This document shows positions 7,657 to 36,830 of a DNA stretch of 36,987 bases, piece by piece. The notes under the pieces are model-generated. The model saw only the letters and a program-made list of their open reading frames with translations, was not told the DNA's origin and did not search any database. The first letter of the stretch is position 1, and every line of letters starts with the position of its first letter. The DNA lies in the NCBI GenBank assembly GCA_001723845.1, contig MCBE01000300.1, forward strand, positions 1-36,987, in the 5' to 3' direction. A program made the position numbers and the translations under genes. The DNA comes from Candidatus Altarchaeales archaeon WOR_SM1_SCG (GTDB lineage Archaea > Altiarchaeota > Altiarchaeia > IMC4 > WOR-SM1-SCG).

Positions 7657-7715
7657 ATGGCACAATCCGAATACCACATTGATTTTTTCAAAAATAACGA
7701 CTTTAAGAGAAGAAA
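7657..7715 (+). pseudogene. alaS 5'-end remnant (about 20 codons)
   Basis: MAQSEYHIDFFKNNDFKRRN matches the start of the intact AlaRS at 13678 (MTQSEYNLDFFKNNDFKRRK). Differences are concentrated in a few codons, several of them synonymous. Confidence 0.85.
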
Positions 7716-7726
7716 TACCACTGTCA

Positions 7727-8284
7727 ATGAAAATGACCGAACATAAATCATCTGATACGATAAACATCAAGGAACTGCGGATTGAAAAACTCTCGGAGAA
7801 TAACCTTAAGTTCACGGAAGTGTTTGACTGCGGAGATGATGACCTTAACGAATTTTTAAAAGACGACGCATTTCACTACCAGAAAGGAAAAATTGCAGTC
7901 ACATACCTGTGTTTTTACATGAATGTATTGGTTGGTTACTATTCCTTGTCAAATGATGCTATTGAAATCAAAGGCAAAGCAAAAAAGATACTGGATAAAT
8001 TAAAAAAGAGGCAGAGGACATACCCTGCAATTAAAATCGGAAGACTTGGAATAGATAAAAACTTCTCAAGGATTGGGATCGGGACTAAAATAATTGATGT
8101 GATTGTCGGATGCGCACGGGTACACTCCAATAGTGTGGGGTGCAGGTATGCCAGTGTTAACGCGTACAATCAACCGGAGGTAGTTGCATTCTATAAGAAA
8201 AACAATTTCAAGATATTAAAGATAACGGGAGGTGAAGAAGGCGATACCCTGTTAATGTATCGCGACATCATTGAATCCGGTTAA
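7727..8284 (+). CDS. GNAT-family N-acetyltransferase
   Basis: GYYSLSNDAIEI, PAIKIGRLGIDKNFSRIGIGTKIIDVIV, RYASVNAYNQPEVVAFYKKNNFKI. The tabled ORF start (7679 TTG) lies inside the alaS remnant; ATG 7727 or 7733 is more likely. Confidence 0.8.
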   Translation: MKMTEHKSSDTINIKELRIEKLSENNLKFTEVFDCGDDDLNEFLKDDAFHYQKGKIAVTYLCFYMNVLVGYYSLSNDAIEIKGKAKKILDKLKKRQRTYPAIKIGRLGIDKNFSRIGIGTKIIDVIVGCARVHSNSVGCRYASVNAYNQPEVVAFYKKNNFKILKITGGEEGDTLLMYRDIIESG

Positions 8285-8451
8285 ACAGCCCCCACCTGCC
8301 TCGCAAGTTTTTCACAGTATTCAAAGTATCTCTTTCTTTCTTTATATTCCCTATCCGTCGGCTTCAGAGACTCTATTCTATCCATTTCATCTAAAAACCT
8401 TACTGCATCATCTCCTTTAAGTTTCACCCCCAGTTCAAGCGGTCTTGCCAT
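8281..8451 (-). CDS. small conserved-looking protein (56 aa), tail-to-tail with the GNAT
   Basis: Manually translated below the ORF-track cutoff: MARPLELGVKLKGDDAVRFLDEMDRIESLKPTDREYKERKRYFEYCEKLARQVGAV*. Its stop overlaps the GNAT stop. Confidence 0.5.
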   Translation of the reverse strand: MARPLELGVKLKGDDAVRFLDEMDRIESLKPTDREYKERKRYFEYCEKLARQVGAV

Positions 8452-8568
8452 TTTAAAATCAGGTTAAGTTAAAGTTAAAATTAATCTAATTAAATATTAA
8501 TTTCAATTCTTTAAATTTAAAAAAATTGATTAAAGCACTTTTCTAATTTCTAACATAATCATCAAGAA

Positions 8569-8908
8569 ATGCTCAAGGATAAAAGTGTGAAATATTTGGT
8601 GTATGCGGATATTTTAGGGTTTGAAGAACTGGCAAAGGAAGTTGCAGGGGAAACAGGAGTAGATGAAGATTCGGTAAGGGAAAATTATCTCTCAAATCCT
8701 TTGAAAGATAAAATAGATGAAATAAAAAAAGATAAAGAAACAGAGGTCTGCACGGGAAGGGACGATTACCTGCTTTTCATTGACAATTTCCAAAAAAACA
8801 TTAGAAGTCATTAATGCACTTTCAAGTATCAAGATTCCGATAAAAAATTATGATTATATTCCTGTTGAAATCGCAGTCGGAGTAAAGGAATTTAAGGAAT
8901 GCGCAAAC
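8569..8908 (+). pseudogene. 5'-end duplicate of the cyclase-like/STAND/HEAT gene, frameshifted and truncated
   Basis: Near-identical to about 10311-10636 (YLVYADILGFEELAKE..AGETGVDEDSVRENYLSNPLKDKIDEIKKDKETEVCTGRDDYLLFIDNFQK). An extra A in the ccaaaaaaacatt run breaks the frame near 8800, and homology ends near 8908. Confidence 0.85.
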
Positions 8909-9009
8909 TAAATTTAAATATAATCACATAAGGACATCATCAGGTATGATATCTCATAACTCTACACGACACAATCAACCAAAACCCAAAATCCATAACA
9001 TAAGTATTT

Positions 9010-9053
9010 ATTTTGACAAGTTTAATATATAATCTGTCAAAGTTGTCAAAAAT
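9010..9053. repeat. left inverted repeat of the ATPase cassette (TTTTGACAA ... TGTCAAAGTTGTCAAAA)
   Basis: attttgacaagtttaatatataatctgtcaaagttgtcaaaaatt aligns with the reverse complement of 10216-10260. The 17-mer TGTCAAAGTTGTCAAAA is exact. Confidence 0.8.
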
Positions 9054-9070
9054 TAAGAGATTAAATTAAG

Positions 9071-10222
9071 ATGCGTAATATAAACCCGTATATACCACAA
9101 ACAGGAAGTATTCCCCCATACTTTTCCGGAAGAAACAATGAGTTAAAATTATTTGAAACAAGGATACAAACCGCGAAAGAAGGGGGCAACATAGGACATT
9201 TAGCAATAATTGGGGGATGGGGTATTGGAAAAACCTCGCTTCTAAAAGAATTGAAGACAATTGCTGCGGAAAATAAATGCGAATCAAAATTGGTGGTCTG
9301 TCCGGAGATTAAAGATTCCAATGAATTTTCAGAGTTTATCATAGGCAAGGTTATTTCACCCACGGAGAGAATAAAAATAAAGAGTGTGAATATAATGGGC
9401 AGCGGCGGTGAGATAGATCGAGAAGTACCACATAAACATCCGCAAGTAAGATTGGTTGATGCACTATCCGAAAAATGGAATAATATAAAAGAAGAAACAA
9501 AACTATATGCGTTGATGGTGGATGATATTGATAAACTGTTGTCTGCGGAGAATGCGCTCACAACGCTTAGAAGTACATTTATAGAACTTTCAATGGAATA
9601 TGAATGCAGATATATGCTTATAGTGACCGGAGCAGAAGATCTCTTTGACAGATTTGCCGAGTATGGTATGACTGAACCATTAACACGATTTTTTGAACCG
9701 ATAATATTAAGAAGATTGAACAAAGAAGAAACAAGAGCAGCCATACTTAAACCCCTTGAAAAAACAAGTATAGAATTTGAAAATGAAGTCGTTGATAAGA
9801 TAGTAAATATAAGTGAAGGGCATCCCTACTATATCCAATTACTCTGTCATAGAATCTACGAGAGAACCGTAGATAAGGCAATAGATAAAGCAGATATGAG
9901 AGTATATGAGGACTCATTTGAAGATGCAATAAATGATATATCTGTGACAAGATTCAATAAAATTTATCCTAAATCAGAGATTGAAAAGACAATTCTTGAA
10001 ATACTTTCAGTTTCAGATGAACCACTCTCACATGCAGAAATAGCAGTTGAAGGGTTAAAAAGGAACATAAAAAGTTCGTCTATAGGAAAACCACTGCGCA
10101 GGTTATTGGATAAAAAATTAGTAAAGCAGATGGAAATAGGCGATAAAAAAGGAAAATATAAAATTTTCGATAATTTTTTTAATGAATATGTGCGACTAAA
10201 AGATCAATTACAAACATTTTGA
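9071..10222 (+). CDS. AAA+/STAND-type archaeal ATPase with C-terminal winged-helix-like region
   Basis: SGRNNELKLFETRI, GGWGIGKTSLLKEL (Walker A), YALMVDDIDKLL (Walker B), RYMLIVTGAEDLF (sensor), C-terminal AEIAVEGLKRNIKSSSIGKPLRRLLDKKLVKQ. Resembles the archaeal ATPase/Orc1-Cdc6-like group. Confidence 0.75.
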   Translation: MRNINPYIPQTGSIPPYFSGRNNELKLFETRIQTAKEGGNIGHLAIIGGWGIGKTSLLKELKTIAAENKCESKLVVCPEIKDSNEFSEFIIGKVISPTERIKIKSVNIMGSGGEIDREVPHKHPQVRLVDALSEKWNNIKEETKLYALMVDDIDKLLSAENALTTLRSTFIELSMEYECRYMLIVTGAEDLFDRFAEYGMTEPLTRFFEPIILRRLNKEETRAAILKPLEKTSIEFENEVVDKIVNISEGHPYYIQLLCHRIYERTVDKAIDKADMRVYEDSFEDAINDISVTRFNKIYPKSEIEKTILEILSVSDEPLSHAEIAVEGLKRNIKSSSIGKPLRRLLDKKLVKQMEIGDKKGKYKIFDNFFNEYVRLKDQLQTF

Positions 10223-10260
10223 CAACTTTGACAAAATTGATATACATATTGTCAAAAATA
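10216..10260. repeat. right inverted repeat of the ATPase cassette, overlapping the ATPase stop codon
   Basis: attttgacaactttgacaaaattgatatacatattgtcaaaaat. See left repeat 9010-9053. Confidence 0.8.
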
Positions 10261-10298
10261 AAATAATTAATTCAAAATTCAAATCAGCGAATGAATTT

Positions 10299-13200
10299 AT
10301 GATGGTTGAAAATAAAAGTGCAAGGTATCTGGTGTATGCGGATATTTTAGGGTTTGAAGAACTGGCAAAAGAGATTGCAGGGGAAACAGGAGTAGATGAA
10401 GATTCGGTGAGGGAAAATTATCTCTCAAATCCTTTGAAAGATAAAATAGATGAAATAAAAAAAGATAAAGAAACAGAGGTCTGCACGGGAAGGGATGATT
10501 ACCTGCTTTTCATTGACAATTTCCAGAAAACATTAGAAGTCATTAATGCACTTTCAAGTATCAAGATTCCGATAAAAAATTATGAAAATATTCCCGTTGA
10601 AATCGCAGTCGGAGTGAAAGAATTTCAAGAATGCGATTACATAAAAAACAGCATAAACAAAACCAAAACAATAGAATTTCTCAAAGATGATATTGTAAGC
10701 CCGTATAAAAAGAAATACAAAAAAGAGCATGACGGAGAAGCAATTAAAGAAACATTTATCCTTCTCACGGGAGATGTTTTTGGAGAACTTGAAGGGGTTG
10801 ATAAAAAATCATGTGAAGAGATTTCTTATGGTGGGAAGCGGTTTTATTTGATGGACAAAGAAATGATTGAAACCAAAGTTAAAGTTCTTAAGTTTCTTGA
10901 GAAAATAGGGCATCCAAATAGTGACTATTATAAAAACATAAATGATGTTTTTGTTCCTCCAGATCACTATGGAAAAATAAAAAGGGATTTGGAAAATCAA
11001 CACATCGCTTTAATAGTTGGCACACCAGAATATGGAAAAACATACACTTCAGTAAGAATTTTATGGGAGTATTTCAATAAAGAAAATTACACTCCCATAT
11101 GGTTTGCTGGAGGCGATGAAAGAGATGATTCAGCAGAAAGATTAAAAAAGATTGGCGATGAATTAAAGCAAAAGCACATTATTTACTTTGAAGATCCGTT
11201 TGGAAAAACAAAATATAAAAGCAGATATGATTTAAGAAGACAAATCGGGTTTATTGTAAATAAAATTAAACAAACGGGCGATGCGTATGTTATAATCACA
11301 TCAAGAAACGATGTTTTTGAAGAATTTGAAAAAGAAAAATTATCCGAGCAGGAACTGGATGATTTTAAAACAGAATTAAATATATCAATCCCTTCTTATG
11401 GTTATGAAAAAAGGTGTGAAATTCTTTCTGAATGGGGAGAAAGTAAAGGGTGTAAATGGCTTGAGAATAATAAACTGAAAGATTTTGCTTTTAAATGTAT
11501 TAAAGAAGAAAAACTTCCAACACCTTTAAGCATCCATAATTTTACAGGTGAATCAAAAAATATCCTGAAAAAGGAGGAATTAAAGAAAAGTATTGATGAA
11601 CACTCAAGAGAAACAGCAAGAGTTTTTGCAGATGGAATCAAAGAACTTCCCGAAGACTGGATTTTATTTTTATCTTTTCCATTTATTTCTGAAGATTTTG
11701 ATATAAATTTCATTAAAAGAAAATACAACGATCTAACGAAAATTTTAGATATAAAATATCCAAACGATTTTGATAAAATTTTAAGTACGGATGATAGAGT
11801 TGATAAATATAAATCCCACTCAGAGAAAAATAGTATAAAATTTGTTCATCCCTCTTATTATGAATCGCTTCCGTATGCTTTAGATGAAAAAAAAGTAAAG
11901 AAAATATTTTGCAGTTTTTTATTAGAATTATCAAAGGATGAAAGTCAATTTGTTAGATTTAGGGTTGCTTATGCAGCCGCTAACAATTTCAATAAATTTC
12001 CTGAGACTGCCGAAAAGTTAATAAAGGAGTTATCAAAGGATGAGAACCCAGAGGTTAGGTGGAGGGTTGCTTATGCAGCCGCTAACAATTTCAATAAATT
12101 CCCTGAGACTGCCGAAAAGTTAATAAATGAGTTATCAAAGGATGGGAACCTAGAGGTTAGGTGGATGGTTGCTTATGCAGCCGCTAACAATTTCAATAAA
12201 TTTCATGAGACTGCCGAAAAGTTAATAAATGAGTTATCAAAGGATGGGAACCTAGAGGTTAGACGGAATGTTGCTCATGCAGCCGCTAACAATTTCAATA
12301 AATTTCCTGAAACTGCCGAAAAGTTAATAAAGGAGTTATCAAGGGATGGGAACCCAAAGGTTAGAGGGAGGGTTGCTCATGCAGCCGATAACAATTTCAA
12401 TAAATTTCCTGAGACTGCCGAAAAGTTAATAAAGGAGTTATCAAAGGATGAAAACCCAGAAGTTAGATGGAGGGTTGCTTATGCAGCCGCTAACAATTTC
12501 AATAAATTCCCTGAGACTGCCGAAAAGTTAATAAAGGAGTTATCAAAGGATGAAAACCCAGAAGTTAGATGGAGGGTTGCTCATGCAGCCGCTAACAATT
12601 TCAATAAATTCCCCGAGACTGCTGAAAAATTAATAAAGGAGTTATCAAAGGATTGGAACTCAGAAATTAGATGGAATGTTGCTTATGCCGCTGCTAACAA
12701 TTTCAATAAATTCCCCGAGACTGCTGAAAAATTAATAAAGGAGTTATCAAGGGATGGGAACCCAAAGGTTAGACGGAATGTTGCTTATGCAGCCGCTAAC
12801 AATTTCAATAAATTTCCTGAGACTGCCGAAAAATTAATAAAGGAGTTATCAAAGGATGAAAACCCAAAGGTTAGAGGGAGGGTTGCTTATGCAGCCGCTA
12901 ATAATTTCAATAAATTCCATGAGACTGCCGAAAAGTTAATAAATGAGTTATCAAAGGATGGGAACCCAGAAGTTAGAGGGAGGGTTGCTTATGCCGCTGC
13001 TAACAATTTCAATAAATTCCCCGAGACTGCTGAAAAATTAATAAAGGAGTTATCAAAGGATGGGAACCCAGAAGTTAGAGGGAGGGTTGCTTATGCAGCC
13101 GATAACAATTTCAATAAATTCCCCGAGACTGCTGAAAAGTTAATAAAGGAGTTATCAAAGGATGGGAACCCAGAAGTTAGAGGGAGGGTTGCTTATGCAG

Positions 13201-13616
13201 CCGATAACAATTTCGATAAATTCCCTGAGACTGCTGAAAAATTAATAAAGGAGTTATCAAAGGATGAGAACCCAGAAGTTAGAGGGATGGCTGCTCATGC
13301 AGCCGATAACAATTTCGATAAATTCCCTGAGACCGCTGAAAAATTACTAAAGAACTTATCAATGGATGAAAACCCTGATGTGAGAGGGAGGGTTGCTTAT
13401 GCCGTCGCATATGATTTTAATAAATTACCCGTTGAAGTCCAAAATCTACTTGACGGGCTTCAGAAAGAATTAGTATCAGAAATTGAGAAATTATCAAAAT
13501 CAAGACATAATCAGAATAGAGAACAAGTGATTGATGTACTTTTAAACGCAAAATCAAAACTGCTAAAAGAATCTGCAATCAAAATTTTTGACAAAATTAT
13601 CAAAAGACGAAAATAA
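10299..13616 (+). CDS. large protein: class III cyclase-like N-terminus, STAND-like NTPase, 15 HEAT repeats
   Basis: N-term YLVYADILGFEELAKE...GRDDYLLFIDNF...IPVEIAVGVKEF; P-loop IALIVGTPEYGKTYTSVRIL; Walker B-like HIIYFEDPFGKT; VIITSRNDVFEEF. C-term tandem 34-aa units ELSKDxNPEVRxxVAYAAxNNFNKFPETAEKLIK. Confidence 0.75.
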   Translation: MMVENKSARYLVYADILGFEELAKEIAGETGVDEDSVRENYLSNPLKDKIDEIKKDKETEVCTGRDDYLLFIDNFQKTLEVINALSSIKIPIKNYENIPVEIAVGVKEFQECDYIKNSINKTKTIEFLKDDIVSPYKKKYKKEHDGEAIKETFILLTGDVFGELEGVDKKSCEEISYGGKRFYLMDKEMIETKVKVLKFLEKIGHPNSDYYKNINDVFVPPDHYGKIKRDLENQHIALIVGTPEYGKTYTSVRILWEYFNKENYTPIWFAGGDERDDSAERLKKIGDELKQKHIIYFEDPFGKTKYKSRYDLRRQIGFIVNKIKQTGDAYVIITSRNDVFEEFEKEKLSEQELDDFKTELNISIPSYGYEKRCEILSEWGESKGCKWLENNKLKDFAFKCIKEEKLPTPLSIHNFTGESKNILKKEELKKSIDEHSRETARVFADGIKELPEDWILFLSFPFISEDFDINFIKRKYNDLTKILDIKYPNDFDKILSTDDRVDKYKSHSEKNSIKFVHPSYYESLPYALDEKKVKKIFCSFLLELSKDESQFVRFRVAYAAANNFNKFPETAEKLIKELSKDENPEVRWRVAYAAANNFNKFPETAEKLINELSKDGNLEVRWMVAYAAANNFNKFHETAEKLINELSKDGNLEVRRNVAHAAANNFNKFPETAEKLIKELSRDGNPKVRGRVAHAADNNFNKFPETAEKLIKELSKDENPEVRWRVAYAAANNFNKFPETAEKLIKELSKDENPEVRWRVAHAAANNFNKFPETAEKLIKELSKDWNSEIRWNVAYAAANNFNKFPETAEKLIKELSRDGNPKVRRNVAYAAANNFNKFPETAEKLIKELSKDENPKVRGRVAYAAANNFNKFHETAEKLINELSKDGNPEVRGRVAYAAANNFNKFPETAEKLIKELSKDGNPEVRGRVAYAADNNFNKFPETAEKLIKELSKDGNPEVRGRVAYAADNNFDKFPETAEKLIKELSKDENPEVRGMAAHAADNNFDKFPETAEKLLKNLSMDENPDVRGRVAYAVAYDFNKLPVEVQNLLDGLQKELVSEIEKLSKSRHNQNREQVIDVLLNAKSKLLKESAIKIFDKIIKRRK
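11925..13454 (+). repeat. tandem 102-bp coding repeats (15 HEAT units; 14 regular plus 1 degenerate)
   Basis: Counted unit by unit in the translation. Units begin at 11925, 12027 ... 13353 with no indels between regular units. Confidence 0.9.
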
Positions 13617-13677
13617 AAAGGCGCGAGAAAAAGCCCTCTCCGCCCTAAAACAATTTCAATAAAATTTAATACCTAAA

Positions 13678-16563
13678 ATGACTCAATCCGAATACAACCT
13701 AGATTTTTTCAAAAACAACGACTTCAAAAGAAGAAAATGCAAATCCTGCAACCGCCACTTCTGGACTCAATCCGACAAAGAAATCTGCGGCGAACCCCCC
13801 TGCGAAGAATACACTTTCATCGGGCGCTCCCTGATGAATAAAAAATTAAATTTACATGAGATGCGGGAAGCATACCTATCATTCTTTGAGAGAAACGGGC
13901 ATACACGGATTGCAAGGTATCCCATCACGGCAAGATGGCGTGATGATGTCTTCTTCACCCAGGCATCAATCTATGATTTCCAGCCGTGGGTTATAAATAG
14001 AACCGTTGAGCCGCCTGCAAATCCCCTGACGATTTCGCAGACCTGTGTCCGGTTTAATGACATTGACAATGTCGGCAAAACCGGGAGGCACTTCACGATG
14101 TTTGAGATGATGGCTCACCATGCCTTTAACACTCCCGGAAACGAGATTTACTTTAAGGAAAGAACACTTGAATTATGTCATAATTTACTTACAAAAGACC
14201 TTGGGATTGACCCGATTGAAATTTCATACATCGAGGATGCCTGGGCTGGCGGCGGGAACTCCGGACCGTGCTTTGAAACAATGGTCGGAGGGGTTGAACT
14301 TGCAACGCTTGTTTTCATGATGTACGAGGAAACGCCTGCGGGAAAGAAAAAAATGGACATGCAGGTCGTTGACACGGGCTACGGGCTGGAGAGGTTTGCA
14401 TGGATGTCGCAGGGGACATCATCTGCTTATGAAGCGGTATTCGGAAGCGTTCTTGAGAAATTGAAAAAAGAGTCGGGAGTTCAAACGGCAAGTGACGATA
14501 AAATCCTGGGTGAATATTCAAAGGTCGCAGGGTTTTTGAATGTTGAAACCGAAGGCGATTTGCGAGAACTCAGAAAGAAAGTTGCAGACCGTCTGAACAT
14601 CACCGTCCCTGAACTTGAGAAACACACAAATCCTTCGGAGAATTTATATGCAATATGCGATCACACGCGGGCTTTGATGTTTATGTTAAATGACGGTGTT
14701 GTGCCGTCTAATGTAAAGCAGGGTTACTTTGCCCGTCTTCTTGTGAGGCGGACGATGAGGGCTTTAAAATCCCTTAACCTTAGCATCCCGATTTCAGAGA
14801 TTACGGGAATGCAGATAGATTATTTCAAAAACGACTTCCCTGATGTTTCAGAAAATAAATGCGAAATTTTAAATTTAATTAACATTGAAGAAGAGAAATA
14901 CAAAAATACAATCAAGCGGGGCAGGGGAATTGTAAAACGGGTTGAATGCGACATCCTGAAAAAAGGCGGCAATAAACTCGGAATTAATGATTTAATTGAC
15001 CTTTACGACTCGCACGGTTTAATCCCGCTCGCGGTTAAGGATTTCGCATCACTCGGTGTTGAAATTCCCGATGATTTTTACATACGGGTTGCTGCAAAAC
15101 ACGAGGGAACGGAAATTGAAGCAGAAGAGAAAGTCGCAGTCCCCGGTGATATTTCTGACACGGAACTTAAATACTACAAAATTGTTTCTCAATTCAGTGC
15201 AAGGGTCTTAAAGATTGATTACGAAAATAATTATATAATTCTTGACAGGACACACTTTTACCCTGAAGGCGGCGGGCAGGAAGCGGATACCGGAAGGATC
15301 GGGAATGCTCGTGTAGTTGATGTTCAAAAAATTAATTCCGTTGTTATTCATAAATTTAAAATTAAAGAAAATATTAAAATCAATTTCAGTGAAGGCGAGG
15401 ATGTTGAATGCGAAATTGACTTTAACAGGAGAAAACAGCTTACCCAGAATCATACGGCGACGCACATAATAAACGGTGCGGCAAGAAAAGTTTTAGGCAA
15501 TCATATCTGGCAGAGCGGGGCGCATAAAAGCGAGGACATTGCACGCCTTGATGTCACGCACTACGCATCACTTACGGATTTTGAGACGGAAGAAATTGAG
15601 AGGCAGGCAAACAGAATTATTGCCGAGAACAGGAAGATTGAAATTTTCACGCTCCCGAGAAACGAGGCGGAAAAAAGATACGGCTTTCGGCTGTACCAGG
15701 GAGGGGCTGTTCCCGGAAGAGACATAAGGATTGTTGACATAAAAAACTGGGATACCGAAGCATGCGGGGGAACGCACTGCGCGGGTGACAGATTTACAGG
15801 TAAAACCGGGGATGTTGAAGTGATAAAACTGATTCGCTCAAAAAGAATACAGGACGGCGTTGTAAGATTGGAATTTGTTGCAGGAGAGGCAGCGAGAAGA
15901 AACATAAGAAAGCAGGAGGAATTGTTTGAAAATTCACTTGCACCCATGCAAGAGTATTCGGGATTGAAAATTGAAATTCCCCTGGATTCGTATAATGTCA
16001 CAAGGGAACTGAAAGGTTCAGCCGACGCTCTTTCCGTTCCATTGGAGCAATTAGCGAAAACAACCCTGCGATTTGCGGGGGAATGTAAAAAAGCCAGGGA
16101 AGAGATAAAAGAACTTGAAGGAGACATCCCGGAATCAAAACTAAAGAACGCAAAAACATTATCAGATGCGTGTAAAATCCTCTTTGAAGAATGGAAATTA
16201 CTTGGTAAAGAAGTTGAAAAATTGAAGAAAAATTTAAAAAATAATGTTTATGAAAATTTAAATGAAAAATTCAAAACAAATAATTTTGTGAAATATATTG
16301 CTCACGGGCTTCCCGTAAAAGATGCAATAAGTTTAGCAAAGGAATTTACGGAAGGGAAAAATAGAATTTTAATTTTAATTAATGTTTCGGGAGGGAAGGC
16401 AAATGTTGTTTGTGCTTCTTCAAACCCTGAGGTTAATGCGGGGGATGCTGTACGGAAAATTTCAAATAAATTAGGGGGTGGGGGGCATGGTGATGTGAAA
16501 CTTGGGGTTGGCGGCGGGAAGGCAAAAGGCGTTGAGAAGGTTCTGGAAGGGTTTGAGATTTGA
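13678..16563 (+). CDS. alaS: alanyl-tRNA synthetase (archaeal type)
   Basis: FFERNGHTRIARYPITARWRDDVFFTQASIYDFQPWV, HTATHIINGAARKVLG, WDTEACGGTHCAGD, C-terminal DHHA1 domain with LGGGGHGD. Confidence 0.97.
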   Translation: MTQSEYNLDFFKNNDFKRRKCKSCNRHFWTQSDKEICGEPPCEEYTFIGRSLMNKKLNLHEMREAYLSFFERNGHTRIARYPITARWRDDVFFTQASIYDFQPWVINRTVEPPANPLTISQTCVRFNDIDNVGKTGRHFTMFEMMAHHAFNTPGNEIYFKERTLELCHNLLTKDLGIDPIEISYIEDAWAGGGNSGPCFETMVGGVELATLVFMMYEETPAGKKKMDMQVVDTGYGLERFAWMSQGTSSAYEAVFGSVLEKLKKESGVQTASDDKILGEYSKVAGFLNVETEGDLRELRKKVADRLNITVPELEKHTNPSENLYAICDHTRALMFMLNDGVVPSNVKQGYFARLLVRRTMRALKSLNLSIPISEITGMQIDYFKNDFPDVSENKCEILNLINIEEEKYKNTIKRGRGIVKRVECDILKKGGNKLGINDLIDLYDSHGLIPLAVKDFASLGVEIPDDFYIRVAAKHEGTEIEAEEKVAVPGDISDTELKYYKIVSQFSARVLKIDYENNYIILDRTHFYPEGGGQEADTGRIGNARVVDVQKINSVVIHKFKIKENIKINFSEGEDVECEIDFNRRKQLTQNHTATHIINGAARKVLGNHIWQSGAHKSEDIARLDVTHYASLTDFETEEIERQANRIIAENRKIEIFTLPRNEAEKRYGFRLYQGGAVPGRDIRIVDIKNWDTEACGGTHCAGDRFTGKTGDVEVIKLIRSKRIQDGVVRLEFVAGEAARRNIRKQEELFENSLAPMQEYSGLKIEIPLDSYNVTRELKGSADALSVPLEQLAKTTLRFAGECKKAREEIKELEGDIPESKLKNAKTLSDACKILFEEWKLLGKEVEKLKKNLKNNVYENLNEKFKTNNFVKYIAHGLPVKDAISLAKEFTEGKNRILILINVSGGKANVVCASSNPEVNAGDAVRKISNKLGGGGHGDVKLGVGGGKAKGVEKVLEGFEI

Positions 16564-16588
16564 TTGAAAGTAATACCCAACTACATTT

Positions 16589-18742
16589 TTAATTTTTAGA
16601 AGAATTTTCAGGACTATGTTTTTGCGCGGGTGGGTCAAATGGATCAAAATTATACCTCTCTTTTAAAATGTTATTTAAATATGTAAATGAATATGCTATG
16701 TCAATGGTGAGTTTTTCCGGGAGCATAAATTGGTATTTTACATTCTCTTGTATTCCTTCTTCTATCCCCTCTTGTATTCCTTCTTCTATCCCCTCTTGTA
16801 TTCCTTCTTCTATCCCCTCTTGTATTCCTTCTTCTATCCCCTCTTGTATTCCTTCTTCTATCCCCCCCTGTATTCCTTCTTCTGTCCCCTCTTGTATTCC
16901 TTCTTCTATCCCCCCCTGTATTCCTTCTTCTGTCCCCTCTTGTATTCCTTCTTCTATCCCCTCTTGTATTCCTTCTTCTGTCCCCTCTTGTATTCCTTCT
17001 TCTATCCCCTCTTGTATTCCTTCTTCTATCCCCTCCTCTATTCCCGTGTAATATACGTCTAATTGTTTGCCCCTGTCTTTTATTTTATATGAACTAACCC
17101 CAGTTTTTATTTCCCAGCTAATCAAATCTATTTTTGAGATTTTTGTATCTTTGAATAGAAAGTAATCATTATCTTCGAAAACTTCTATCAGTTTCTTATT
17201 AACTTTCTTTTCCTTTAGATATTGTTTATATTCTGGTTCCAAACTAAACAAATAATTTTCATCTATTTTATATAAAGGATAATCACAAAGTAAATCTGCA
17301 TTTATTTTTAGTTCGTTGTCGCTCTCATCTATTGATTTGACTATTAATGGCCACTTTTTACCAATAGCATCTAATACTGCGTCCTCAAATTGGGAGGGAG
17401 TTTTTGTTGTTATATTTATTCTTTTAAGCCACATTAACCATTTATTTGTGTGTAAACCCATCTCCTCTAACTTTTCATTTATTCCTTTATCAATTAATTC
17501 AAGCATGTTTAAAAGATCTGGATAGTCAGTTTCTATTTTAAACACACCAATTAAACGATATTGAAGTCCCTCTATGCTCATAATTTCTAAATACTTAATT
17601 TCATTTGTTATTTCCCTCAACTTTTCTACAACATCCTTAATATTTTCTGGGCTTGCGTCTACTTTAAAATGAATTTCAATCTCATCAATAATTAATTTTG
17701 GTTTAAACGGTGTATGTTTTATCTTTTTACGTATTGTGTCTGGAATAAAATCAAACATATTTGCTAAAATATACGGAGATGCATGTATATCGATACCTCT
17801 TGATAGGGCATATAATAAATTGAAAATATCACTATTTTTATCTATCTTATTTATTAATAAAGACTTTAGAGTATTGTCAAGTGATTGCTCATCCACATTT
17901 CTCGGAGATAATTCTTTACATACATCTATAACCCTTCCTTTGTTTACATATTCACTAATATTTTTCCATTCTGATAAAAAACCATGGGTCAGTGCAACTT
18001 GGAGTATAGACTGTTGCCATCTTTTTTTGCCATCCCTTTTATCTTTTATTGATAGTGCCAGTATATGCGACAGTATATTTAATCCGATACATTCGGTATG
18101 AAATTCACAATTTTTGAAATCAATTTCATGAGATTCTTTAATACTCCACCCTAATTCCTTTAAATAATTGCGAAGTCCTACATCACCTGCCCAATTATCT
18201 TTTAGGGAACTACTGCTAATGTAACATATCAATTGCTTTTTGTATACATTTAACTGGTCATTTGCCTCTTCTATTATATAACCCCCCTCTTGCCCCTTTA
18301 TCTTCCAACTTTTATTACCTATCCTGCAGACTCTTGTGCCATTAGATAACCGGATATTATTATATTTAAATATTTCCTTCAATTGCTCATTAATTTCGCC
18401 AATCTTCAAGTATTTTCTGTAGTCTATACTTAAGTTAAACAAATATGGTCCGTTACATGTCCTAAATGGCCACAATCCAAACACATTCATATTTCTTAAA
18501 TTTGGTCCTACAGTAATAAAAAGAAAATCGCCATTATCATTAATTTTATGTATCGACATGATTCGTCTTTTACGCAATGCATACTCTTTCATTTTCTGCA
18601 GACTCATTTCATCATACCCACATGCAATGCCTATACAACCCATAATGCCATTATCAATTTGTAGGGGATACCAATAAACCCTATCAAATTCCAACTCGAT
18701 ATCGCTCATGCTTTTTTCCGGTTCCAATAAAAATTTAAACAT
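16589..18742 (-). CDS. uncharacterised 717-aa protein with two copies of a ~60-aa domain and a C-terminal GIEEGIQEG repeat
   Basis: Long ORF. KYLKIGEINEQLKEIFKYNNIRLSNGTRVCRIGNKSWKIKGQEGGYIIEEANDQLNVY aligns with QYLKEKKVNKKLIEVFEDNDYFLFKDTKISKIDLISWEIKTGVSSYKIKDRGKQLDVY. Confidence 0.75.
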   Translation of the reverse strand: MFKFLLEPEKSMSDIELEFDRVYWYPLQIDNGIMGCIGIACGYDEMSLQKMKEYALRKRRIMSIHKINDNGDFLFITVGPNLRNMNVFGLWPFRTCNGPYLFNLSIDYRKYLKIGEINEQLKEIFKYNNIRLSNGTRVCRIGNKSWKIKGQEGGYIIEEANDQLNVYKKQLICYISSSSLKDNWAGDVGLRNYLKELGWSIKESHEIDFKNCEFHTECIGLNILSHILALSIKDKRDGKKRWQQSILQVALTHGFLSEWKNISEYVNKGRVIDVCKELSPRNVDEQSLDNTLKSLLINKIDKNSDIFNLLYALSRGIDIHASPYILANMFDFIPDTIRKKIKHTPFKPKLIIDEIEIHFKVDASPENIKDVVEKLREITNEIKYLEIMSIEGLQYRLIGVFKIETDYPDLLNMLELIDKGINEKLEEMGLHTNKWLMWLKRINITTKTPSQFEDAVLDAIGKKWPLIVKSIDESDNELKINADLLCDYPLYKIDENYLFSLEPEYKQYLKEKKVNKKLIEVFEDNDYFLFKDTKISKIDLISWEIKTGVSSYKIKDRGKQLDVYYTGIEEGIEEGIQEGIEEGIQEGTEEGIQEGIEEGIQEGTEEGIQGGIEEGIQEGTEEGIQGGIEEGIQEGIEEGIQEGIEEGIQEGIEEGIQEGIEEGIQENVKYQFMLPEKLTIDIAYSFTYLNNILKERYNFDPFDPPAQKHSPENSSKN
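16751..17038 (-). repeat. 12 x 24-bp tandem repeat encoding G-I-(Q/E)-(E/G)-G-(I/T)-E-E
   Basis: Unit tattccttcttctatcccctcttg (plus strand) repeated 12 times with point changes (tctgtc, cccccc). Confidence 0.95.
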
Positions 18743-18887
18743 TTTTTATCAAATATTATTCCTTTTTTTATCATTAAAGTAACCTATAAATAATTTTTAA
18801 TGATATGGTACAACCATTGATGGAATATGTGGTGTTTTTTGAAAGTGTACTCCACTGATTATAAAATTCTGTGTGATACTATAAATC

Positions 18888-19409
18888 TCATCTTTTAATT
18901 TCAAATTTAACATCTCTTATTATAGAGTACTTCTTTATCGCATCTTCTGAAAACTCAAATGCTGCTTTCTCAATTATTTTTTTATCCATCATTTCCAATG
19001 GATAGTCAAAATTAATCTCTTCTTCATCTATTGTCATAGAAGGAATCTTCCTTCCATACTTACTATTCGGTGTATTTAATTGTCCATTTTCATCAATAGA
19101 AATGCCCTGCTCAATGAGCCACGCACTATCCACATCAATTGAATGTGGATCAATAAAACGAATTGCATGATCCCTTGCTTCTAATCTCTCTTTAATCTTT
19201 TCTATGACATTTTTTATTATATACTCTTGAGGGGGATTATGTTGTACTATGGAAAACTCACCATCTTTAACTGCAACAAATGGTTGCGTCCCTTTATAAG
19301 GGGTTTCAACCAAAAAAGGACTCCAGAAAATCTCAGGGTCATCAATTACCCACACATCAAATACTGTCCAAAATCCATCGATTCCAAACATTCTGATTAC
19401 AGGGTGCAT
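18888..19409 (-). CDS. hypothetical protein
   Basis: ORF with ordinary-looking composition. The same frame is open and protein-like upstream of the first ATG (IIDGCIREEFDRLLYDLKP). Confidence 0.55.
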   Translation of the reverse strand: MHPVIRMFGIDGFWTVFDVWVIDDPEIFWSPFLVETPYKGTQPFVAVKDGEFSIVQHNPPQEYIIKNVIEKIKERLEARDHAIRFIDPHSIDVDSAWLIEQGISIDENGQLNTPNSKYGRKIPSMTIDEEEINFDYPLEMMDKKIIEKAAFEFSEDAIKKYSIIRDVKFEIKR

Positions 19410-19462
19410 TGGTTTTAAATCGTATAAAAGACGATCAAACTCCTCGCGTATACACCCATCTA

Positions 19463-19915
19463 TTATCTCGCGTTGATCTTTAAAAGATTGTCAGCACCTT
19501 TATCTCTCGCATTCTCTAACATATCTTCATTTGCCGGAACTGCCATCTGAAAATTATAAGTCAAACCAATTCTTGCATCAGTTGGTATAACAAAGACAGG
19601 AAGATTCAATTCCCGTGCTATATTCCCAATTAGATGACCTTCCACTTTCTTATATAACCCAATAAGAGGAGTGAGGGTGAATTTTTGTTTTAACTCATGT
19701 TGTATTATCACCTCTGCTACATTTTTAAGAGGACCTGCTTTAATATATTCCGCAAGCAACGACTTTCTTAAATCTTCATCCATTTCCCCAAGAAAAGCAT
19801 TTAAATATCTGCTTCTAACCTGTACCCTATCTTCTATACTCTCCACTCTAAAGGGTATTTCTGGTTTCTTAAAAAAATACTGTTCCTGATAATCAATTGG
19901 TTTATTGGAGTTCAT
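19463..19915 (-). CDS. hypothetical protein
   Basis: ORF of 150 aa, collinear with neighbours, 42 nt downstream of the HEAT protein gene in transcription order. Confidence 0.55.
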   Translation of the reverse strand: MNSNKPIDYQEQYFFKKPEIPFRVESIEDRVQVRSRYLNAFLGEMDEDLRKSLLAEYIKAGPLKNVAEVIIQHELKQKFTLTPLIGLYKKVEGHLIGNIARELNLPVFVIPTDARIGLTYNFQMAVPANEDMLENARDKGADNLLKINAR

Positions 19916-19956
19916 ATTATCTTATTTTTTTATTTATGTATTTATTAGTCTTTTTA

Positions 19957-21114
19957 TTAATCGAGTTCTCCTAATGCCCATTTCGCACTCGTTCTCACTT
20001 CTTCATACTCATCCTCTTCTAATAGTGATAATACATGTATAGTATCTCCCCTCATGTTTTCGGGTATTTCATCCCCCATATTGCCAATAATCCATGCTAA
20101 TATGGACTTGACTTTAGTGTCACTATCGTTTCTTAATTCCAATATATTTTCTATAACTACTCCCCTATACTCATGGGGGATAACAGTTCTTATCCTCCCT
20201 ATAGCCCATGATGAAAGACGTCTTACGCGCCAGTGGCCATCCTTAACTAACTCCAATAATCTTTCCACCACACCATTCATACTATCTTCCGGGATGTTAT
20301 CTCTCATTTTTCCCATAGCCCATGCCACATCACGCTTTCCCCGAAAGTCAGTAGTTCTACTAAATTCTAACAGACCATTTATAAACTCGTTTATCATATC
20401 CTCTGGAATAACATCCAATATTCTGTCTAAATTTTGTATTACACTACGCCTTACTACCCAATCAGAATCTGTGCATAACTCTAATAATCTATTTACAACA
20501 TCTACTCTTAGATCTTCGGGAATTAAATCCCATAATACATTTAAGGAATTCACTGTGGATTCTTTTACGATCCATGCGTTATCACCACTTAATTCTATCA
20601 GTACATTAACCACATCATTGATAGTTTCTGGTGTGATTATCCTTTTTAGTTTCCTTAATGCACGTACTGCAGACTCGCGTACTTCTTCTTTTTTGTATCT
20701 ACAGGTAGTGACTAATGTTCTAATTACATCTGCGCTATTAGTTTGTGGAATTACGGTTTCCAACCGTCCAAGCGATAGGACCGAAGAAGCGACTACAGTA
20801 TATTGTTCATTTTCATCCGTGCAAATTGTTGTTAAACGATTTATAACAGAGGATATTTTATCATTGGGTATAAAATTACCTAATTTACCTAATGACATAC
20901 ATGCAGATCGTTTCACGATCGCATTTCCATCTTTACTAAATTCAATTAATTGCGTTATAATTTCATCTTTTAAATCCTGTGGGATTATATTATATAACCG
21001 ACTATCTAAGTTCCCCAGATTACGTATTGAAATTGCTCTTACTGGTGGTGCGCGGGCTGTTGTTTTTGCTTCCAATAACTCTCCTTGTACCCAATGTTCT
21101 ATATCAATTGACAT
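19957..21114 (-). CDS. HEAT-repeat protein
   Basis: Repeated units such as DVVNRLLELCTDSDWVVRRSVIQNLDRILDVIPED and GVVERLLELVKDGHWRVRRLSSWAIGRIRTVIPHE. Confidence 0.8.
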   Translation of the reverse strand: MSIDIEHWVQGELLEAKTTARAPPVRAISIRNLGNLDSRLYNIIPQDLKDEIITQLIEFSKDGNAIVKRSACMSLGKLGNFIPNDKISSVINRLTTICTDENEQYTVVASSVLSLGRLETVIPQTNSADVIRTLVTTCRYKKEEVRESAVRALRKLKRIITPETINDVVNVLIELSGDNAWIVKESTVNSLNVLWDLIPEDLRVDVVNRLLELCTDSDWVVRRSVIQNLDRILDVIPEDMINEFINGLLEFSRTTDFRGKRDVAWAMGKMRDNIPEDSMNGVVERLLELVKDGHWRVRRLSSWAIGRIRTVIPHEYRGVVIENILELRNDSDTKVKSILAWIIGNMGDEIPENMRGDTIHVLSLLEEDEYEEVRTSAKWALGELD

Positions 21115-21388
21115 TTGAATTGTTTTGGATTATTAAGATTTAATAAAATTAATTATGTTGTTTAAAAGTGTTGAAAATGTCCTCCCTAAAAAATTAATTA
21201 GTTTTCTTGACAGATTTCAACACAATTATATTAAATATATAGATTCATTCTTTATATATTAATTTTTTAAATGCAGGTTTTGCGACATTTTTTTGTCGCA
21301 AAGATAAAAATAATCCTATTTTTACAACTTTTTATTTTATTTCTGGAAAAGCATTAAAAGTCAACATTTTCAAAATATAACTAAAATT

Positions 21389-21437
21389 CTAAGTGGGCTA
21401 AAAGCCCGCTATTTCTCGTCGGGAAACTCCGACTGAG
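21389..21437 (-). mobile_element. possible IS200/IS605 right-end / omegaRNA-like hairpin remnant
   Basis: Reverse complement ctcagtcggagtttcccgacgagaaatagcgggcttttagcccactt contains two stem-loops like those at the 3' end of archaeal IS605 tnpB elements. No tnpB is present. Confidence 0.45.
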
Positions 21438-21812
21438 GAATGGAAATTACTTGGTAAAGAAGTTGAAAAATTGAAGAAAAATTTAAAAAATAATGTTTAT
21501 GAAAATTTAAATGAAAAATTCAAAACAGGTAATTTTGTAAAATTTATCTCGCACGGGCTTGAAGTAAAAGATGCAATAAGTTTAGCAAAGGAATTTACGG
21601 AAGGGAAAAATAGAATTTTAATTTTAATTAATGTTTCCGGCGGGAAGGCAAATGTTGTCTGCGCTTCTTCAAACCCGGATGTTAATGCGGGGGGTGCTGC
21701 AAAAAAAATTTCAAATAAATTAGGGGGTGGGGGGCATGGTGATGAGAAACTTGGGGTTGGCGGCGGTAAGGCGGAGAGCGTTGAGGATGTCCTGGCGAAG
21801 TTTGAAATTTGA
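21438..21812 (+). pseudogene. alaS 3'-end fragment (DHHA1/C-Ala domain), frame intact
   Basis: Same length as and gap-free with 16189-16563. First ~95 nt essentially identical, more divergent toward the 3' end. Ends in LGGGGHGDEKLGVGGGKAESVEDVLAKFEI*. Confidence 0.9.
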
Positions 21813-21983
21813 TTTCATTAACATAATTGGAATTCTTATAGACAGTTATCGGGATTATATTCCTGGGCGTAATCATGTTTTATTTTATATTGGTTGAATT
21901 CAGGATGTTTGCACAAATCTATAAAGAATCAAAAGAAAAATTAATTGAAACCGCACCTTTATAATCCAAATTTAATTTAATTT

Positions 21984-25836: not shown

Positions 25837-25950
25837 TTGCAATTAAATTATCATTTTCCTGTTTATTATTAAAATTAGATTTTCAATAATTTATTAAAGA
25901 AATTTATTGATTGATTTGTAATTTCTAATAAGTAACTGTTATTTTTCTAC

Positions 25951-26024
25951 GGGCCCATAGGGTAGCCTGGATATCCTTGGGGACTTCGGATCCCCAGACC
26001 CGGGTTCGAATCCCGGTGGGTCCG
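25951..26024 (+). tRNA. tRNA-Arg (anticodon TCG)
   Basis: gggcccatagggtagcctggatatccttggggacttcggatccccagacccgggttcgaatcccggtgggtccg; acceptor GGGCCCA/TGGGTCC, anticodon loop CTTCGGA, T arm CCGGGTTCGAATCCCGG. Confidence 0.88.
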
Positions 26025-26247
26025 TAGTAATTATTATATAATTCATAAGTGGGTTGAACATTAAGTGAAAATACGCTCCGCGCTCGTCGGGAGCGTGACC
26101 CGACGGGGACTTCGGATCCCCAGACCCGGGTCCGAATCCCGGTGGGTCCGTAGTAATTATTATACAATTCATAAGTGGGTTGGGGCGAGGCGAAAATACG
26201 CTCCGCGCTCGTCGGGGGGATCCGGGTTAGAATCCCGGTGAGTCCGT
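25979..26247 (+). repeat. tandem repeats of the tRNA-Arg(TCG) 3' portion plus ~80-bp spacer (unit 126 bp between the first two copies)
   Basis: ggggacttcggatccccagacccgggt(t/c)cgaatcccggtgggtccgtagtaattattata at 25979 and 26105; degraded third copy ccgggttagaatcccggtgagtccg at about 26222-26247. The spacer motif aaaatacgctccgcgctcgtcggg occurs twice. Confidence 0.9.
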
Positions 26248-26392
26248 AAATTAATAATACAATTCCATTAGTTGATTACTTTAAATAGTTTCAATATTAA
26301 TGGTATTAAAGGGAAGAAATATTCGTTTTACCCGAGTGATGACATTTGGCTCGGTTAATCTCTTATTTAGCCGATAGTTATGTATTGAACTT

Positions 26393-33700: not shown

Positions 33701-34050
33701 CTTACTGTTGATTGTTTCACCTGTGCAGGCGCCGGGTTTTAGAATTCCGGGTAGGTTGCTATTTTTGAACTTACAACTTACCTATGGCAGACAATAGTTT
33801 CAGATGTCCTTTTACAAGATGATTGAACTTATTTATCTCATCAATAACTATCCTGCTCTTTTCACCATCTCTTAAATGGTCTGATTTCTCCGTTTTTGAT
33901 CCGGTTTCTGATTTCATCGTGCGAATAATAATTTTCCCTGATGCCCACCATAACTTTAGCATAACCAGGTTCATCTTTTATTTTAAACTTTCCATTATTC
34001 TCTTTTATGAAGTACTTTGATATTTAGTATTAAAAAATTAAATTAAAATT

Positions 34051-34340
34051 CACTTCCCTTCAATCAGTCCCATCTCCTCATCCGTCAACCCGTAAAGTTC
34101 ATAAACAAGTTTATCAATCTCTCTTTCTGCCCCGGAACCGATTTTGACCTTTTTGTTGATGTCAACAAAATGGTCTTCAATGTTTGCCCCCCGAGTTTTT
34201 GCACGATTCTTTTGCTTTATTTAGAACCAATATGAAATTTATCCATTGCGTGTATCCCAATAATACCTGTAAATCCCTGGCAAACCGGAATTCAACACCT
34301 TCCACTTTATTTACATAATCTTCAAATGTTATTTTTCTTT
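34051..34340 (-). pseudogene. DinD-like N-terminal segment fused to an R-M methylase tail, frameshifted
   Basis: KITFEDYVNKVEGVEFRFARDLQVLLGYTQWINFILVLNKAKESCKNSG, frameshift at a GGGGGG run, then ANIEDHFVDINKKVKIGSGAEREIDKLVYELYGLTDEEMGLIEGK*. Confidence 0.7.
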
Positions 34341-35185
34341 ATTTTGCTGTTTAATCTGTTTTGCTTTTTTTCCTGTTAAATGGAGGTAATTTCCGTTTGA
34401 GATAATGGACTTACCTGTTTTTTGCTCAATTTCTTTTCGTGTATTTTTTGCAATTGTTCCTCCTTCAACAGCCGAATCCCTGCATTCCACAAATCCTTCC
34501 GAGTCCTTTGAAATTGTGATGTCGGTTGTTGCTTTCTCACCGATCATGGTTAAAATCAACTCCCAGTCATTCATGTGATCTCTCAGGTTTTGATTTTTGA
34601 ATTTCGGGTCAAGTCCTTTTATTTTTTATGTTCCTTGATTGATATATCAAATGTTGCTTTTGAAATTTCGTTTGTAAGGATTGCGTAGTCCTTTTGTTCT
34701 TCAATTCCCCTCCTGCTCCATTCGTCTGTCAATTCCTGTCTTATGGCAATTCCTCTGAGCCGTTTTTCAATCCAGTCCTTTGGATAACCTTTAAGTTCAT
34801 AGTACTTTTTTGCCCGCTCCTGTGCAAGTTCGGGGTTTTCTATTTCCCGGATTCGCTCGTAGCCGACCCTTGCAAGCCATCTCTTGAATGGTTCCGCTTT
34901 CTTTGAGGGGATGGACTGGATAATCCTGAAAGTGTTTTCTGTGTTTGTACAATCTGTTTTGTATTTTTTACCGTCTGCTGCTGCTAATTTCAGTTGTACC
35001 CAAATTGGGGACAACTCAAGTTTTTTAAACTCCCGGTCTTTAACTTTACCCCAGTATTGCCTTGGTGTGGGACTATCAGTCAAGACCTCCATAACATCAA
35101 CAACCGAGAAATACCATTCCCCATCATGCCATGTTCTCCTGATTCTCTTTCCTTGAAATACTACTAATGCTTTATCCGGGTTCAT
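34329..35185 (-). pseudogene. BRO-N/phage-antirepressor-like protein, split by frameshift near 34619
   Basis: MNPDKALVVFQGKRIRRTWHDGEWYFSVVDVMEVLTDSPTPRQYWGKVKDREF...; after EHKK* the alternate frame reads KGLDPKFKNQNLRDHMNDWELILTMIGEKATTDITISKDSEGF into ORF 34329..34574. Confidence 0.75.
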
Positions 35186-35221
35186 TTTTTGATTAAATTA
35201 AAATTCAATAATTATCAAAAT

Positions 35222-35452
35222 TTATCCCCCCTCAATAATTTTAATCTCCCCCTCCGCCAGCCCGTAAAGTTCATAAACTAATTTGTCAATCTCTCTTTCT
35301 GCCCCGGAACCGATTTTGACCTTTTTGTTGATGTCAACAAAATGGTTCTCAATTACCTGTAAATCCCTGGCAAAGCAGAGTTCAATGCCATCCGCTTCAT
35401 TTACATAATCTTCAAATGTTATTTTAAGTTTTGTGATTATTTCTTTTTTCAT
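35222..35452 (-). CDS. chimeric small ORF: internally deleted DinD-like segment fused to an R-M methylase C-terminal tail
   Basis: FEDYVNEADGIELCFARDLQV|IENHFVDINKKVKIGSGAERE|IDKLVYELYGLAEGEIKIIEGG. Same fusion as at 34051-34340, lacking the LLGYTQW..NSG segment. Confidence 0.55.
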   Translation of the reverse strand: MKKEIITKLKITFEDYVNEADGIELCFARDLQVIENHFVDINKKVKIGSGAEREIDKLVYELYGLAEGEIKIIEGG

Positions 35453-35496
35453 TTTCGGTTATTTTTCTTTATTGCAACCTTCTGAAAGGTTGATCA

Positions 35497-36375
35497 TCAG
35501 ATGCCATCTTCGCTTCGCTTGATGACATTATGAATTTTTGATTTTGATTTTTCCAGTGTCATTAAAAATCTCATAAATGTCCCGGTCAAATATATCATAA
35601 ATTCAATTTCTTCCTCTTTGATTTTATCTTCATGTTTTACATAACGATTCTGGTAGTCAGTGTAACGCCCCAATAATGTATGATACATACCCCCTATTTC
35701 CGTTGTAACGCATTTATCTTTTAGGTATTTTCCTAATTCATTTTTTTGGTTTTCTATGCTTTTCTCGTTTCCGAGAATACTCTTTAACAAAAATTCTAAA
35801 GATAATCTCAAATCATCAACCAAATTTCTTTCATAATGTCTATTTTCATACTTCTCCAAAGCACTCCTGAAGTTTTTGTGTACTTTTGGATATTTACTTA
35901 TCCAATCAAGAACATCATCAACTACTTTTTCATCTAATAATTTTGCACCGGCAGGATAAAAGAGGTATTCGTCTTTTACTTTTACTAAGTTGATTTGTAA
36001 ACGAGAACAATCAATGTCATGTTTAAAATGCTCAAATAATTTTGGATTTATCCTTAAATTTCTAATCATAAGGTCTATCCAGAATAATACTTGCAGATAA
36101 AAAATATATTTAGTGGGATTTTTTTCTTTGTTCAAAAGACAATAAATTTTTGTTTTGTTAAAAGATTCAACTAGTGAGAGCAAACCTCTTTTAGGTATTC
36201 TCGCTCCAACGATACCTAAAAAGTCATCTTCGATACTGTGTGGTACTCTTGCGTTCCCAAAAATTTTATTAATTGAGTTCATTGTTCTGTTTTTAAATTC
36301 TCTAAATTTTTCTTCGTCATCTACTTGAACTTTCCATATTTTATCAAATTTTTTTCTTTTGTCTTGTAAATCCAT
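35497..36375 (-). CDS. uncharacterised 292-aa protein, possible Abi/HEPN-type defence protein
   Basis: Long ORF with a helical, charged C-terminus (YENRHYERNLVDDLRLSLEFLLKSILGNEKSIENQ...). Located among R-M remnants. Confidence 0.5.
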   Translation of the reverse strand: MDLQDKRKKFDKIWKVQVDDEEKFREFKNRTMNSINKIFGNARVPHSIEDDFLGIVGARIPKRGLLSLVESFNKTKIYCLLNKEKNPTKYIFYLQVLFWIDLMIRNLRINPKLFEHFKHDIDCSRLQINLVKVKDEYLFYPAGAKLLDEKVVDDVLDWISKYPKVHKNFRSALEKYENRHYERNLVDDLRLSLEFLLKSILGNEKSIENQKNELGKYLKDKCVTTEIGGMYHTLLGRYTDYQNRYVKHEDKIKEEEIEFMIYLTGTFMRFLMTLEKSKSKIHNVIKRSEDGI

Positions 36376-36405
36376 TTTAGTTATTTGTTTTTAAAAATAA
36401 AATTT

Positions 36406-36830
36406 TTATGACTCTTCAACAATTTTAATCTCCCCCTCCGCCAGCCCGTAAAGTTCATAAACAAGTTTATCAATTTCTTTATCCGTCTCTCTAATCTCCT
36501 TCTCTATCCTTGCTTTTTCAGCCAAGTCATCTTGTATTTCTTTAAGACGCTCATTGAGAGAAAGCATTTTATCTGCGAGTTCTATGAAGGGTTTTTGCTC
36601 TGAAAAAGAAATCTTTTTAATCGGCAATCTTTTAAAATCATCAGGATAAAAATAATATTCAATTCTATGCCTTCTTATTGTGTTGAGATAGAATTTAGCG
36701 AATTTTGAATTTAGTATAGCTAGGATATATTTCAGGTCAAAGTTTAAAGAAATTTCTTCTAATTCCTTTCTGGTTTTAGATGTCCATTGCTTCTAATCAA
36801 TTTCAAACTTCTTTCAATAAATGGAATGAA
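36406..36830 (-). pseudogene. C-terminal fragment of Eco57I/TaqI-type R-M methylase
   Basis: Frame open upstream of the tabled ATG to 36789: QWTSKTRKELEEISLNFDLKYILAILNSKFAKFYLNTIRRHRIEYYFYPDDFKRLPIKKISFSEQKPFIELADKML...EIDKLVYELYGLAEGEIKIVEES. A different-frame piece (ERSLKLIRSNG) lies just upstream. Confidence 0.7.

Follow-up and report, generated by a model that had tools for sequence, protein, structure and literature searches.

The stretch analysed here (the window) is one whole contig of 36,987 nt, MCBE01000300.1, from the assembly GCA_001723845.1 of Candidatus Altarchaeales archaeon WOR_SM1_SCG, which comprises 2.55 Mb in 300 contigs and is 74% complete. Three pieces of the alaS gene lie on its plus strand, as an earlier note on this DNA had described and self-BLAST confirmed. 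The central piece is an intact gene (tRNA-synt_2c match, 1e-126), the sole full-length alaS found in the assembly, and it aligns over its full length with those of relatives at 54–59% identity; the nearest relatives compared are other families within the same order. Upstream of it, a 59-nt 5' remnant (7657–7715) matches positions 13678–13736 at 86.4% identity (8/59 differences, E 4e-13). The downstream 3' fragment is likewise real and ungapped, and it is slightly longer than first described: it spans 21434–21814 (381 nt) rather than starting at 21438, and matches 16185–16565 at 90.6% identity without a gap (36/381 differences, E 6e-150). It starts at the first base past a repeat that the earlier note had missed, which we call R (21383–21433). 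In the following, D denotes the copied segment, D1 the upstream copy that ends the intact gene, and D2 the copy directly after R. The proposed cassette in the window comprises D1, four genes on the minus strand and R, and would be inserted at approximately codon 837 of alaS.

R, about 51 nt long in the window, is a real dispersed repeat, since a pattern for its second hairpin (≤3 mismatches) matched 43 times in the genome versus 3 times for the reversed control, a covariance model recovered dispersed copies, and its first hairpin covaries. The aligned copies share AAAATTCTAAG, followed by hairpin 1, which is variable in sequence and loop, then CTCATTCTC and finally hairpin 2, GTCGGGAATTTCCGAC. 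The terminus reads ...TTTCCGAC or ...CCCGAC and is followed by variable sequence, the right edge being sharp across the aligned copies. Base pairing of the two-hairpin structure reaches 95% across 25 copies, and hairpin 1 contains 36 two-sided compensating cells versus 0/500 shuffles. The covariance model (E ≤0.001) yielded 39 copies in the present genome and a further 17 spread over eight other Altiarchaeales. With an earlier version of the model, 32 archaea from outside the class gave no hit; two exact patterns found none in viral contigs, and R had no match in Rfam 15. No description of R was found in the literature by a search that mostly missed subscription journals, which makes it weak evidence of novelty.

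The arrangement at alaS is not peculiar to this gene, as the same pattern recurs at many others. A D2 starting ≤10 nt after R and copying an upstream segment on the same strand was found at 28 of 43 loci in this genome and at 11 of 18 in relatives. A like test at random positions was positive at 62 of 1500 when the copy had to start within 3 nt, and at 80 of 1500 when 15 nt were allowed, or about 4–5%. In most cases, and in several genomes, D2 begins within 3 nt of R. Of the R copies that lack a D, several are no more than a few hundred bases away from where a contig ends, and some are on very short contigs.

The copied segment spans from the interior of a gene to just beyond its end, the gene preceding R being intact and the copy following it being a stub. 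In most genes oriented as R, D1 ends no more than about 25 nt from the stop codon; where the gene orientation opposes R, D1 usually ends near the start codon. This fit to gene boundaries is looser at L121, L130 and L177, and some start codons are uncertain. D reaches lengths of up to 524 bp, and the interval from D1 to R ranges from zero to several kb. The smallest case, L170, consists of two 149-bp gene ends, 98.7% identical, around a hairpin element of about 52–53 bp alone. Tandem D-R-D-R-D arrays are present at L171, at L127 and at the tRNA-Arg gene of the window. Besides alaS, the protein-gene targets include UbiA, M42 peptidase, Mtd (methylene-H4MPT dehydrogenase), Memo, a TrmI-like methyltransferase, MoaA, MCM (with an intein), an MFS transporter, SAICAR synthetase (purC), FolE2, inositol monophosphatase and GyrA. 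The intein-bearing MCM helicase gene (L130, 15588–19379) is also an R-element target at its 5' end.

Transfer RNA (tRNA) genes serve as targets as well, R being found in or against tRNA-Arg (in the window), tRNA-Val, tRNA-Glu and others. In genomes of this kind, we estimate the share of tRNA genes at about a quarter of a percent, and because of this small estimated share, the seven or so of about 60 R copies at tRNA genes appear far above chance. At the tRNA-Arg gene of the window, two elements of the R kind have accreted (26039–26249), which had gone unreported in the earlier note. The second tRNA-Arg that ARAGORN called there (26079–26151) is apparently chimeric, made up of the hairpin and a displaced half. 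Elsewhere (L211, 685–850), R lies antisense in a tRNA anticodon loop, at the usual archaeal intron position. No D copy accompanies it there, and it may lie inside an intron or itself be one that is spliced out.

We then compared D1 with D2. Under decay in place, about two thirds of the coding differences would be nonsynonymous and D2 would carry frameshifts. Pooled over the diverged pairs, 143 of 356 coding differences are nonsynonymous, where 231 would be expected under such decay (P~3e-21), with a pooled pN/pS of 0.19 and dS of up to ~1.2. Furthermore, the D2 frames remain open, and the coding pairs are almost free of indels. Mostly synonymous differences, open frames and few indels together indicate that D1 and D2 diverged as working gene ends in different lineages before they met, and that one of them came with the element. 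The alaS pair fits this pattern (dN/dS 0.30, open frame). Differences within this pair are unevenly spread, leaving stretches of 90 and 74 nt identical, a distribution suggestive of some conversion between D1 and D2.

The young, near-identical pairs are uninformative on the origin of the divergence. Their mismatches are crowded directly after R, at 24/126 in the first 9 nt versus 9/795 beyond (P 3e-15); at L167, 6 of 9 bases directly after R differ and the following 57 are identical. In this respect, the junctions resemble those of a site-specific recombination with a mismatched overlap or coupling region. The target side displays a weak preference for G at +3 and for A at +5, +7 and +12, and positions -12 to -1, on the left of the junction, hold almost no information.

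From the anatomy of the locus, its recurrence and the divergence pattern, we conclude that the alaS 3' duplication is probably the footprint of an R-ended mobile cassette that integrated site-specifically and brought a replacement gene end with it. The proposal of the earlier note that a replacement end had restored the target and displaced the original is well supported on the 3' side and plausible, though unproven, on the 5' side. The element most likely extends only from D1 at 16185 to 21433, and not over the whole 13.7 kb that had been suggested.

We weighed four other explanations of the duplicated gene ends. The one that survives best, which we nevertheless consider unlikely, is that R, whether or not it brings cargo, inserts with a very long target-site duplication (50–500 bp), so that the D copies are identical at the start and D2 then decays. 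The D copies of young loci are indeed near-identical (98.7% at L170, 98.9% at L120, where D is 93 bp, and 100% at L215), and widely staggered nicks, primed copying or strand slippage would give the same anatomy. However, the purifying selection recorded in the diverged pairs and their intact D2 frames already contradict this explanation at older loci, and the D ends follow gene boundaries. Neither an RVT_1 (reverse transcriptase) domain, as a target-primed retroelement would need, nor a Y1 transposase was found in this 74% complete genome. Retroposition with long target duplications was rejected on the lack of RVT_1 together with the selection pattern.

Less probable again is a single unit of ~13.7 kb (7716–21433) that carried a complete foreign alaS into a resident alaS and left both remnants. 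Both remnants are similarly diverged from the intact gene, as such a unit would predict. Against it, the other R elements join the intact gene at the base matching the start of D2 and carry a gene end only, an extra deletion of resident codons 20–836 would be required, and the 5' junction has neither an R nor another end. A unit with a whole alaS, which the earlier note had offered as one of its two options, is not needed to explain the pieces.

Ordinary unequal recombination, or a tandem duplication of alaS followed by decay, with R being incidental, is very improbable. Many unrelated partial duplications do exist in the sampled contigs, but the close apposition of D2 and R in several genomes, against 4% at random positions, does not fit such events, and at several loci the copies differ at far more synonymous sites than a local one could account for. 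Finally, a chimeric assembly of mixed strains, conceivable in an assembly this fragmented and with IS-like repeats at contig ends, is scarcely credible: dozens of loci, among them those in independent Altiarchaeales assemblies, share this architecture, for which a chimera cannot account.

If R-ended cassettes integrate site-specifically, the recombination route, the capture step and the enzyme that we infer would be as follows. A cassette would consist, in order, of D1 (the end of the target gene), optional cargo and R. Its circular form, R-o-D1-cargo, would recombine at a short overlap, o (8–9 nt), inside the same gene of a recipient, which would adopt the end brought by the element and have its own end displaced behind R. 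New gene ends would be acquired through recombination of R with an o-like site in the gene lying upstream. Because of the mismatches at the junction, the target preference and the tRNA targets, a reaction like that of tyrosine recombinases seems plausible at R, and the catalyst would likely be of this type, acting in trans. Six tyrosine recombinase matches are present in the genome, and int fragments lie near R at L245 and L172. A link between R and a recombinase of the type found on contig C49 was also considered at L224, and was discarded as merely a shared IS end at contig ends.

Several observations weigh against site-specific integration of such cassettes. About a third of the R copies have no detectable D, and the cut-offs of the random control differ slightly from those of the R test. 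Taken alone, the alaS pair does not reject decay (19/35 nonsynonymous, P 0.11). No recombinase gene was found in the window element or in the small elements, and the XerA/integron-integrase-like gene on contig C49, tried as the R enzyme, has a distribution across the phylum that does not track R. No conserved left-end sequence was found beyond an AT-rich stretch. Neither a circle nor an empty site was seen, the relatives compared being no closer than the same order; the synteny comparison called for in the earlier note found no close neighbour match beside their alaS.

On the 5' side, neither R nor any other recognisable end was found beside the alaS remnant, which therefore needs an event separate from the R element. 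Of the two insertions that the earlier note had proposed, one per end of alaS, the 3' one is supported, and the 5' one is plausible and unproven. A GNAT-like gene directly follows the remnant; its open reading frame (ORF) was listed from 7679, with an in-frame ATG at 7724. Further downstream, a frameshifted 5' fragment of the STAND-HEAT gene, absent from the earlier note, matches 10312–10635 at 94% identity. Together, the alaS remnant and the STAND fragment display the architecture expected for 5'-end replacement, without R. At L124 (11796–15239), likewise without R, two copies of the 5' end of the gene for a RuBisCO large subunit (96%) enclose genes for a HEPN protein, a nucleotidyltransferase-like protein and a 376-aa product. 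At L123 (15158–18706), a small gene insert lies between two copies of the trpA 3' end (435 bp, 96%), and the junction lacks R. These R-less duplications may reflect other element families with the same habit.

The remaining features of the window are collected in Table 1. The 41-nt inverted repeats around the nSTAND1 gene are 80% complementary, as in a small mobile unit. Near-identical tandem repeats are found in the 717-aa ORF (72 bp, 16745–17044) and in the STAND-HEAT gene (102 bp, 11925–13429), which suggests that the repeats in both expanded recently. Near the contig end, three sets of direct repeats (72–168 nt, 77–89%) surround BRO-like and 292-aa genes (34016–36478). As for the cargo, the 173-aa protein had no match in 100 other genomes searched. 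The L120 element carries a type II restriction enzyme and its methyltransferase, and the L177 element a Swt1-like HEPN protein.

Table 1 Features of the window around the alaS pieces and the tRNA-Arg gene
Feature	Position	Strand	Evidence or remark
alaS 5' remnant	7657..7715	+	Starts at ATG; no R adjoining
GNAT acetyltransferase-like gene	7724..8284	+	Directly after 5' remnant; PF13508 21.9 bits, under its cutoff
5' fragment of STAND-HEAT gene	8579..8903	+	Frameshifted
nSTAND1 ATPase gene (9071–10222) between 41-nt inverted repeats	9011..10257	+	
nSTAND3 and HEAT-repeat protein, 1105 aa	10299..13616	+	102-bp tandem repeats
Intact alaS, 961 aa	13678..16563	+	ORF, family match, relatives
D1, probable replacement 3' end, now end of intact alaS	16185..16565	+	Self-BLAST; same D1/D2 relation at other R loci
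ORF, 717 aa	16589..18742	-	Cargo; 24-aa tandem repeats
ORF, 173 aa	18888..19409	-	Cargo; no family
ORF, 150 aa	19463..19915	-	Cargo; no family
HEAT-repeat protein, 385 aa	19957..21114	-	Cargo
R, two-hairpin repeat, element right end	21383..21433	+	Covariance-model match, 69–71 bits
D2, probable displaced alaS 3' end	21434..21814	+	Covers alaS from about codon 837 to stop +2; frame open; not expected to function
tRNA-Arg(TCG)	25950..26025	+	Second R-type target in window
R variant after tRNA-Arg	26039..26104	+	Hairpin GTCGGG...CCCGAC
Displaced tRNA-Arg 3' half and flank	26105..26216	+	Followed by second R-like hairpin and third, shorter tRNA 3' fragment (to ~26249)

Apparently, elements that end in a hairpin and substitute the terminal parts of conserved genes make up an undescribed family, of which the alaS 3' stub is one instance. 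A wider proposal, which we put forward tentatively, is that R marks an undescribed class of mobile elements of the Altiarchaeota that would lack an integrase, have one folded end, capture upstream gene ends and home, in other cells, to the gene so captured at an overlap of 8–9 nt. Essential genes would then offer docking sites that are safe and can be used again, and defence cargo would spread in company with foreign gene ends. Essential single-copy genes are usually thought to be poor insertion sites. The R family sits in many of them without breaking them, because a replacement gene end is supplied in trade. The resulting chimeric genes would confuse phylogenies built from alaS, gyrA or MCM markers in these archaea. 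In addition, R followed by a displaced gene end is a simple signature by which uncultivated archaea can be searched for cargo, restriction-modification and HEPN genes included. A recombinase able to act from a single folded end, over a short overlap that tolerates mismatches, would merit isolation.

Among known systems, R shares with the IS200/IS605, PATE and REP/RAYT hairpin elements its short length, dispersed distribution, terminal hairpins and sharp right edge. Unlike at IS200/IS605 elements, the gene end is duplicated. There is also no conserved target motif on the left, and neither a Y1 transposase nor a TnpB zinc ribbon was found in the 74% complete genome; together with the lack of an Rfam match, these absences led us to reject a TnpB/omega-RNA end, which the two hairpins had suggested, as the identity of R. 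Tn916-like elements carry coupling sequences, a few mismatched bases from an earlier site beside one end. The R elements likewise have mismatched bases beside one end, whereas Tn916-like elements carry no replacement gene ends. We also compared integron cassettes and their attC sites, including those of archaeal integrons (PMC9668308), and attG insertion (Loot et al. 2024, as cited in PMC11023631). As with attC, each cassette has a single structured R site, in which the stem covaries and the hairpin loop is variable, and like integron cassettes, R elements bring varied cargo, including defence genes, and insert beside short degenerate sites. On the other hand, the R edge has no R-box (GTTRRRY), no attI array and no IntI-specific domain were seen, and the R elements carry and replace gene ends. 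The closest likeness is to the gene-restoring integrative islands that tyrosine integrases insert into tRNA genes (Islander, PMC4383910; archaeal integrases, PMC8371274). As in these islands, at the R loci tested the element copy regenerates the gene and a displaced fragment marks the far end, and the replacement end is a diverged homologue brought in, to judge by its synonymous-biased divergence. Both also occur in 3' and 5' versions, accrete in tandem and use tRNA anticodon or T arms as sites. The R elements differ in using many protein genes, in their single covarying two-hairpin end, in D lengths of up to 524 bp, and in that their smallest units contain no integrase. On this comparison, R elements appear to resemble gene-restoring integrative islands in the way they work, and it is the integrase gene that sets them outside that group.

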